Assembly (NCBI GenBank): GCA_949710005.1
Contig: OX453272.1
Location: forward strand, 6,754,133-6,818,132
Length of the DNA: 64,000 bases
From: Ricordea florida
Lineage: Eukaryota; Cnidaria; Anthozoa; Corallimorpharia; Ricordeidae
Direction: 5' to 3'
The stretch's first letter is position 1. Every line of letters begins with the position of its first letter. A program made the position numbers and the translations under genes. Below the pieces are notes generated by a model. That model did not search any database. It saw only the letters and a list, made by a program, of their open reading frames with translations, and was not told where the DNA came from. Positions 41,907-55,121 of the stretch are shown one piece after another.

Positions 41907-44681
41907 ATGGGAGTACGTTTACTCCTCGTGCTTCAATTAACATTCAAGTGGTTACCTTGCTTCCGGGCGGACGAGTACAAATTCTGCGATGCTAAGCCGC
42001 TGGGCAAGTACTGCCTGCCTGACAACTCAGGATGGCGGGAATGCTTAATTGACGCGTTGGATGAGCCTGCGGAAGAGGTGCACCGCTGTCCGCAGGGGTT
42101 AAGGTGTGGCCTGATATCTGAGCTGTCTTCAATGTCTTGTAACCGAATATACAGGGAGCTAGGATCCAATTGAGAACTTTTAAAAAATCTTTTATTCGGA
42201 CTAAATAAAGAGTGAGACAGGCAGATTTGTGTGCGCAAGTTTAGTTGTCTCCTCTTTCCCTGTGATTTGCTCACCCCAGACTTGTGGCTTACACGTTAAC
42301 TTCGTAGACAGTCAGTGAGTACAGTGCAATATCTGTCAGTGATAAGTAAAAAAGAAACCTACCATCCCGGACAAAAAAGTTGGGACAGCAAGCAAGTTCT
42401 TCCCTCCCCCACTAACAATGTTGATAATCGGGTGAGTTTTTTCCCTTCTTTGTTAGAAAAAACGCGATATTTTTCAACATTGATTAGGGGGGATGAGGGA
42501 TACGTGATCTAGCTCAAGGAGAAGACGGGGATGGAAATTTTGAATTTAACCCCTCAAAGAGACCAATCTGGAAGTGGCCGAAGCTTATGCAGACCCCTAA
42601 AAGAGACCAGTTTATAAAACAGACAAATAAAAAGTACAAAGACTTTTAATGATGGTGAAGACCTTATCATCGAATACTTCACGTGCAACCCTTAACGAGA
42701 CCTTGACGGCTAAAAATAATGACATTTTTCCCAGAACACCCTAAGCGAGACCAAAATCCGAAATTTACATCCCTAAGCGCGGACGACGAGCATCCCCGTC
42801 CATTCCATATGGGAGTTCATCCCCCCGGGTCCCAACTACTTTTGGCCTGGATTGTAGTTGACTATTTGTATCACACAACTACAGAATTCTATTTAGTTGG
42901 GTTCAAAGTAGTACGTTTGAATCACTTTGATGTCATTTTAGGTGTACGTGTACGAATAATCTTGAACAAGGCTCATGTCTCACCCACGTAAAAAACCCGT
43001 GCGTCCGCTCAAACAGTGAGCGTGAACGTCCAGAGTTCCCTCAGTCGTACTTTGGCGTGATTTTCGTGACAGACGCGTTTTGTGACAAGGAGGGATGCGA
43101 GGGTCGCATTGTTGTAAGCGAAAAGTACCGCGACAACAAGAAAGGAGGGCGATCACGTGAAGACCTCGTGATGGGACTGACGCAGCACATGACAGTAATA
43201 ATAATGCCGCAAGATTCGAAATGGAATCAGGTGATTAAAAGTTGTGTTTAATTATTGATAACTTGACTGTTGACTTTGTGAAGAGGTAGGAAGGGGTGGC
43301 GTCAGGGATGGAGGGAGAGGCTGGGTGATTTGGACCTGATGCATTGTGCATGGTGTAGAGCCGTACGTTTTGTGTATTTTATGCTGCCATATTGGGAGAT
43401 ATTCCGTTTAGAGTGCCCCCTTAACCAAGATTCTATATCTCGTATCTCGGGCGCCGGTTCTCAGGTCAACCTAGTCTACATGAAGTTTATTACAGTGTGA
43501 TGTAATTGCGTTCGATGCAGGATAACGCAAGCCTAATCTTGTGTTGATGTCCTGTGCCAGGAGCCCACCCTGTGCACCTGTTGGATGTTATTACTGTTAT
43601 TGGATATCATTATCATCATCTTTGTCATCGTCATCGTCATTGTCATTGTCATTGTCATTGTCAAAATTGTTATTATCATTATCGTTATTATTATTATTAT
43701 TAGCTATTTCTATGTGGTTAACGTAAATTTAGCCCCCCCCCCCTTGAAGATATTTTTAAGGTACCGCGGCCTCGCTTTCATAATCTCAGCTTCAATTCAA
43801 CGCACGTACCTACCTACCCCTGTCTAATCCTTTTTTACCAACAGTCAGGTGCATGCTTGACGTCAGCTCCTCTCAACAATATCGAGCGCACTCGCTAATC
43901 TGTGATAACTCTTAGTAATAATAAACTTATAACCATGCACGGTGGTTGGTATATGCAATTTTATTTTTTGCTTCCTCAGTACGCGATTGACTTAAAAGAA
44001 GGAACACCTGTCTGCAACAAGACCGTTCTTTCCGAGTTCCGAGGTCTCCGAAGAGTCCCGGACAACTTCCGATACAATGGCACAGTGGAGATTCTTGGGG
44101 TTGAATGTGACGATTGGGTTTACGAAGCAAGTAATCAAGGCAACTTTAGCGCTGTAAAAGACAAAGCTAAGAGCGTTGGTTTTAGCCAGACCGTACGGGA
44201 CAAGATATTAAATCGACTCAGGGACAATGTGGAGCTCGCCCCAGGGGGAGGGGGAGATATTGTCGAAGTGCATCACATCTATGTGGCTAAGATCAATGGC
44301 ACCAACGTTCCGTTGAAAGTTGAATTTGCTATCGCAATTCCAAGTCAGAAAATTTTCACTCACTACAAAGAATTCATGGTAGCCTACTATCCCAACAAGT
44401 CAATTAGTATTAGCAGCGAGTCCCGGATTTTTGATCTCCCGGATGTGTGTAATCAGGACGAGGAGGGCGGGGCAATTGCTGATGTACCGCTGGACATACA
44501 GACTGTTAAACGCCACGGGCACCATCTCCAGGGAAAAAAGCGTGGCGAAAATGATTTACAGCAAACCAAAAGATTTATGATGCCTTCAGTAAAAGAAGAA
44601 CTGAGTCCTTCTTCAGATCTACTGGAACATTATAGAGTAGCTGATAAAGTAATAGGAGCTGTCTATCAAAACACAAAATGA
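41907..44681 (+). CDS. Secreted Cys-rich ependymin-like protein A
   Basis: Exons 41907-42103, 42942-43230, 43980-44681; 1188 nt, 395 aa; phases 2 and 0. A signal peptide (MGVRLLLVLQLTFKWLPCFR) is followed by the family's Cys module: EYKFCDAKPLGKYCL, SGWRECL, RCPQGLRCTC, NPC, then VTDAFCDKEGCEGR. The third exon encodes the C-terminal half with GTPVCNKTVLSEF, VPDNFRYNGTVEI and the closing RIFDLPDVC. That half resembles ependymin C-termini (Cys, then 'VPxxF', a long strand region, then 'FxLPxxC'). It is the most divergent of the three paralogues: about 45 extra residues (KDKAKSVGFSQTVRDKI... to a PGGGGD run) and a roughly 65-residue basic tail after the last Cys. Secreted; function unknown. Convergent with gene B, 632 bp apart. 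Confidence 0.82.
42250..42935. other. Intron with degenerate MITE-like repeat
   Basis: First intron of gene A. 42540-42800 has recurring 'cctaaacgagacca'-like units (AAAGAGACCAATCTG, AAAAGAGACCAGTTT, TAACGAGACC, TAAGCGAGACCAAAAT). It ends with CATATGGGAGTTCATCCCCC-CGGG near 42807-42830, a G/C-rich end like those at 49141 and 62460. Confidence 0.5.
43600..43746. repeat. (TCATCG/TCATTG/TTA)n microsatellite and poly(C)
   Basis: Imperfect trinucleotide run 43607-43702 followed by a C-run at 43732-43743, in the second intron of gene A. Confidence 0.9.

Positions 44682-55121: not shown

Follow-up and report, generated by a model that had tools for sequence, protein, structure and literature searches.

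The window analysed here, a 64,000-nucleotide stretch of contig OX453272.1 from the corallimorpharian Ricordea florida, carries three genes that share one architecture. Rebuilding of the spliced models from the DNA bore out the preliminary description of a cluster of three intact genes: g1 (41907-44681, plus strand), g2 (45313-47047, minus strand), and g3 (52645-55121, plus strand) translate without internal stops into proteins of 395, 283, and 287 amino acids. The genes g1 and g2 stand tail-to-tail, g2 and g3 head-to-head, and all six introns have GT-AG borders. As had been claimed, the first coding exon measures 197 nt in each gene (41907..42103 in g1, 46851..47047 in g2, 52645..52841 in g3), the second falls between 265 and 289 nt (289 nt at 42942..43230, 265 nt at 46393..46657, and 274 nt at 54078..54351, respectively), and the introns lie in phases 2 and 0 throughout. 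The third coding exon, including the stop codon, spans 702 nt in g1 (43980..44681), 390 nt in g2 (45313..45702), and 393 nt in g3 (54729..55121). In g1, exon 1 encodes a likely signal peptide and the FCD...CPQGLR part of an N-terminal module, exon 2 the end of this module (CxC...NPC) and the first half of a putative ependymin-like domain, and exon 3 the second half of that domain up to FDLPDVC (C319), followed by a tail of 76 residues.

The first intron occupies the same column of the protein alignment in all three genes, the second in two of them, with g3 three columns away in a gappy stretch. We attach weight to the shared phase and alignment column rather than to the exact length of 197 nt, which we rejected as informative in itself because differences in signal-peptide length offset an indel. 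Acceptor-like sites directly before the ATG of g2 and g3, identified by eye, suggest a 5' non-coding exon upstream of both genes.

Elsewhere in the window, frames of an LTR-type gag-pol element run off the edge of the window (2-2284, minus strand), and 2964-5381 on the plus strand holds the frame of a non-LTR reverse transcriptase (PF00078); both element types are our own reading. A weak reverse-transcriptase remnant was found at 38723-39304 (minus strand). The minus strand also carries a zf-PARP domain at 8185-8607 (PF00645, E = 1.8e-25), which we take to resemble the zinc finger of DNA ligase III, the start of an ABC-class P-loop ATPase at 28286-28558 (PF09818, E = 2.6e-21), and a tRNA-Thr (GGT) predicted by ARAGORN at 26020-26092.

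The three proteins are 25-37% identical in pairwise comparison and recognize one another in blastp searches (g2-g3, E = 1.6e-50; g1-g2, E = 7.9e-24; g1-g3, E = 8.4e-16). Identity between paralogues amounts to 0.42-0.54, 0.46-0.56, and 0.23-0.29 at codon positions 1, 2, and 3. Since the first two positions are far more alike than the third, the genes look as expected for old duplicates under purifying selection.

To assess copy number, we searched the host genome (538 Mb, 48 contigs) with each protein, using 319 of the 395 residues of g1; the search ran exon by exon with the best candidates scored, and diverged paralogues could be missed. All five places found with g1, seven of nine found with g2, and seven of eight found with g3 fell inside the cluster, and the three places outside were weak (E = 1.05, 0.378, and 2.63). 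Inspection of open reading frame (ORF) lists by eye recognized no gene at C13:21795842 and a reverse-transcriptase-like frame at C8:20637752, and the ORF at C15:525799 resembles one at 33940-34329 of the window and is probably of mobile-element origin; all three were dropped as further copies. Within the window, tblastn likewise returned no additional copy, the best stray being a g2 match at 33979-34134 (E = 0.018) that probably sits in a mobile-element frame. Scans of viral and prokaryote contigs gave 24 and 31 pattern-matching stretches, respectively, none of which was upheld by tblastn. At this sensitivity no other credible copy was found in the 538-Mb genome, the outside matches looking non-coding or mobile-element-like, and the family appears to consist of three genes in one place.

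The N-terminal module comprises ~60 residues with eight cysteines and follows the pattern FCD..P.G[KR]YC....[ST]GWxEC...CP...RCxC......C.......C. The motif described earlier as SGWxxC is present, its correct form being [ST]GWxEC with T in g2. Pfam offers no credible counterpart of this module; an isavirus fusion protein listed for g3 (E = 0.12; 11.5 bits, where the cut-off is 25) is at chance level. The g3 module found no credible match among PDB sequences, no second copy of the module emerged from the host-genome searches with the g1, g2, and g3 proteins, and no description of it was found in our searches of open-access main texts.

Hydrophobic N-termini with Kyte-Doolittle peaks of 2.0 (g1), 2.8 (g2), and 3.1 (g3) suggest that the proteins are probably secreted, the putative signal peptide of g1 being weak by this measure (2.0 versus 1.9 elsewhere in the protein). 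Each protein contains five N-glycosylation sequons and is thus probably N-glycosylated. The C-terminal half had been described as ending at FxLPxxC; the motif itself is kept in the form [FL]xLPxxC, with L in g3, and it closes the proteins of g2 and g3 while g1 continues 76 residues beyond the last domain cysteine (44451..44678, plus strand). This tail, absent from g2 and g3, has no Pfam match at E = 0.01 and contains three dibasic sites (TVKR-HGHHLQG-KKR, TKR). The G-KKR site would fit release of an amidated HGHHLQ peptide by a proprotein convertase, an agreement that may be due to chance.

We then examined the relation of the C-terminal half to ependymin (PF00811) by profile searches against the 24,736 models of Pfam, in which this family has a curated cut-off of 32.3 bits. 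With whole proteins, PF00811 was absent for all three genes at E up to 10 and no credible family appeared; the only row, LuxS for g2, was set aside as chance-level (E = 0.22 for the whole protein, 0.13 for the domain piece). The isolated C-terminal domain of g2 aligned with positions 19-128 of the 128-position PF00811 profile (14.3 bits, E = 0.046), those of g1 and g3 remaining unmatched. When exon 3 was searched alone, PF00811 ranked first for g2 (14.7 bits, E = 0.034) and was the sole match for g3 (13.0 bits, E = 0.12; 13.5 bits, E = 0.083 after trimming), both matches extending to the last position of the profile. A Staphopain proregion listed for g2 exon 3 was likewise discarded as chance-level (E = 0.22). 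Neither of two reversed controls matched anything at E = 10. Divided by the 24,736 models, the exon 3 values correspond to ~1e-6 to 5e-6 for one family named beforehand, to be read against three cuts tried for every protein and a fourth for g3. The profile search proposed in the preliminary description thus gave a divided answer: g2 and g3 rank PF00811 first by exon 3, all scores fall below 32.3 bits, and g1 was unmatched in every cut. By the operational definition of Pfam, g1-g3 lie outside PF00811.

A profile-profile alignment of exon 3 with five ependymin-related proteins (EPDRs) scored 18.7, and 3 of 300 shuffles of the columns scored at least as high. Against vertebrate EPDR1 alone, hhalign gave weak results (P = 0.077 and 0.11) confined to the last ~25 residues. 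In short pairwise tests, at most 20 of 1000 shuffles reached the observed score in 6 of 18 comparisons, namely at the beginning of exon 3 for g1 and g3 with the human protein, at the C-terminus for g2 and g3 with the human protein, and at both ends for g3 with one ordinary EPDR of the same genome; the other 12 were not significant. By eye, the g2 terminus TFTLPSFC aligns without gaps over ~20 residues with VFTPPSTC of human EPDR1. PDB sequence searches with g3 and with the alignment profiles A1, A3, and A5 retrieved no relevant match. AlphaFold predictions on exon 3 alone (three sequences, pLDDT 31) and on a g2 read-through of exon 2, intron, and exon 3 (pLDDT 37) bear neither way on the fold.

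The same genome provides a useful reference. Searching it with PF00811 identified two places, corresponding to two tandem ordinary ependymin-related genes (L011-L012) on the minus strand of contig C13 (28369001-28386000), each probably with at least five coding exons as judged by eye. A hand-joined fragment of an ordinary EPDR from this genome matched PDB entry 6jl9, ‘Ependymin-related 1’ (EPDR1), at E = 1.9e-13, from which we conclude that these genes are true EPDRs. As the same fragment reached only E = 0.066 against the beta subunit of the sponge carotenoprotein EPD-BCP1, weak scores appear to be usual between distant EPDRs. Both C13 proteins lack the N-terminal module, and their first cysteine (QFPAPCG, QRPQPCG) lies by eye a few residues past the likely signal-peptide end, so the view that the module sets g1-g3 apart from classical ependymins holds. 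Strand 6, on which the EPDR C113 equivalent lies, is preceded by a phase-0 intron in g1-g3 and in both C13 genes, whose sites were placed by eye; by a crude simulation in which intron positions were assumed, such sharing has a chance of ~9%. The remaining placeable introns of the ordinary genes are not common to g1-g3.

Outside the signal peptides, the alignment contains 13 conserved cysteines: seven lie in the module and an eighth at its end or where the domain begins (C83 in g2), two make up a CxxxxC pair, and the others are the C113 equivalent, one just before a conserved Trp, and the last one; g3 carries an additional C186. EPDR1 has the disulfides C42-C172 and C113-C210 (PMC6363788), and in our proteins the place of C172 is filled by Gln or Leu (‘QQFPV’ in g2, ‘LLQPL’ in g3; by eye). 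Across EPDRs, all three described profiles have conserved cysteines at positions 23, 94, and 186 of the alignment and differ in their extra cysteines (148; 24, 107, and 148; or 107), and some members deviate from these profiles (McDougall 2018, PMC6280359). We propose by eye C86/C174/C319 (g1), C83/C164/C280 (g2), and C83/C167/C274 (g3) as equivalents of 23/94/186, those of 94 and 186 anchored by motif and intron and that of 23 by order alone. So assigned, g1-g3 fit none of the three profiles: position 148 (C172) is absent and the cysteine before Trp is extra, which by eye amounts to a fourth pattern. In the pairing that we envisage, the module would use the first eight cysteines, CxxxxC would close on itself, and C113-C210 would be kept. 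With these 12 paired, the cysteine before Trp (C205/C194/C202 in g1/g2/g3) would be left over. In EPDR1, the hairpin that connects strands 7 and 8 contributes most of the dimer contact (PMC6363788); because the unpaired cysteine would lie near this hairpin, dimers linked by a disulfide can fairly be predicted.

Taken together, sub-threshold matches of g2 and g3 to PF00811, EPDR-type cysteines, the end motif, and one shared intron make remote homology of the C-terminal half to ependymin probable, set against the absence of whole-protein matches and the silence of g1; the earlier assignment as ependymin-like therefore stands in a qualified form. We interpret g1-g3, with a probability of about 0.65, as ancient clustered paralogues encoding probably secreted, glycosylated, disulfide-rich two-part proteins whose diverged EPDR half most likely binds a hydrophobic ligand. 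We infer that the C-terminal ~200 residues would form a highly diverged EPDR with the LolA-like beta ‘glove’, a twisted antiparallel sheet of 11 strands with a hydrophobic groove; a lipid or carotenoid, for example, would be held either in this groove or where two subunits meet. We regard the ~60-residue, eight-cysteine front module as an addition that probably serves attachment or the binding of a partner and would fix the carrier to matrix, cell, or partner.

That the C-terminal half is instead a separate cysteine-rich secreted fold, with end motif and spacing arisen by convergence, appears unlikely. The empty whole-protein Pfam searches, the complete lack of PF00811 matches for g1, the 12 non-significant pairwise tests, and the want of a usable AlphaFold model would all agree with such a fold; it would leave to coincidence that g2 and g3, only ~36% identical, both rank PF00811 first up to the profile end while two reversed controls stay silent, and that an intron agrees with ordinary EPDR genes. 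A specific role as carotenoproteins, that is, pigment proteins like sponge EPD-BCP1, seems somewhat less likely still. Such a role has been demonstrated for a sponge EPDR (PMC10470211) and proposed for a two-domain coral EPD-like orthogroup, OG000001644 (PMC13044578), but no ligand-lining residue could be reliably mapped onto g1-g3, and identity with that orthogroup is not established, its numbering being off by ~70 residues.

We give the least credence to g1-g3 being structural proteins of the skeletal organic matrix or mucus with the cysteine-rich module as a crosslinker. An EPDR1-like protein occurs among Stylophora skeletal proteins (PMC7115838) and a secreted ependymin-domain protein in Stylophora epidermal gland cells (PMC8162421); given their recognizable ependymin annotation, however, these more likely belong to the ordinary type, of which Ricordea florida has two genes on C13. 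A bolder version of our preferred reading, an ancient EPDR derivative, can be offered only tentatively, as doubtful but less so than these alternatives: g1-g3 might constitute a separate ancient EPDR lineage, in which a new eight-cysteine module is joined to a glove with its own cysteine pattern, the proteins form covalent dimers, the three-gene cluster stands apart from ordinary ependymins, and the g1 tail is cleavable to an amidated peptide.

Under standard annotation these genes come out blank, no Pfam family being credible for the whole proteins. Should they prove to be related to ependymin, the family would extend beyond what searches by sequence reveal, and a testable role as extracellular lipid or pigment carriers would open up for some coral ‘dark’ genes. 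For such tests the cluster supplies defined proteins, together with a cysteine that may link the dimer and a module that may serve in binding. Overall, it is a real, well-conserved cluster and probably a remote modular ependymin relative, not a new kind of system.

Among known systems, EPDR1 and the fish ependymins (PF00811) are closest in the features retained. The ends of g2 and g3 (D...[FL]TLPxxC) resemble that of EPDR1 (D...FTPPxxC), cysteines C113, C210, and probably C42 have equivalents, a conserved Trp (W151 in g2) and Pro (P174 in g2, and in g3) match in position by eye, and a phase-0 intron precedes the same strand. The differences lie in the missing C172, the extra cysteine before Trp, the CxxxxC pair (C107/C112 in g2), the ~60-residue module with eight cysteines in front, and the sub-cut-off Pfam scores. 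EPDR1 itself, which has a hydrophobic groove, occurs in lysosomes as well as in secretions (PMC6363788), EPDR gene clusters arisen by tandem duplication are well known (PMC6280359), and another coral ependymin-type gene belongs to a calcification-linked expression module (PMC11701869). The sponge protein EPD-BCP1 (PDB 8i34), secreted, glycosylated, and of EPDR fold, is a possible functional analogue of g1-g3. The sponge EPDR binds carotenoids at the dimer interface (PMC10470211). Each of its subunits has two conserved intramolecular cysteine pairs, and g1-g3 have lost the one of the C42-C172 type; a module like theirs is not reported in the available part of the published account. Proteins combining an EPDR with a cathepsin (PMC6363788) also join an EPDR domain to a second one, yet there the EPDR is N-terminal and its partner a protease, whereas in g1-g3 the ependymin-like part is C-terminal and its partner cysteine-rich.

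The nearest published counterpart that we met is OG000001644, a ‘dark’ orthogroup conserved in corals, whose AlphaFold model shows two domains, one of them EPD-BCP-like (PMC13044578, 2026). Like g1-g3, it represents coral proteins of low identity to known EPDRs; a linker connects its EPD-BCP-like domain to a second one, so the idea of a two-domain coral ependymin-like protein is partly in print already and the suggestion of an undescribed subfamily cannot be kept in full. Its figure equates I168/F275/Y279 with I40/Y142/F144 of EPD-BCP beta; compared by residue numbers alone, its EPD-like domain starts near residue 150 as against 83 in g1-g3. Its N-terminal part would thus be ~70 residues longer, so that OG000001644 may represent a sister family and not the one described here.
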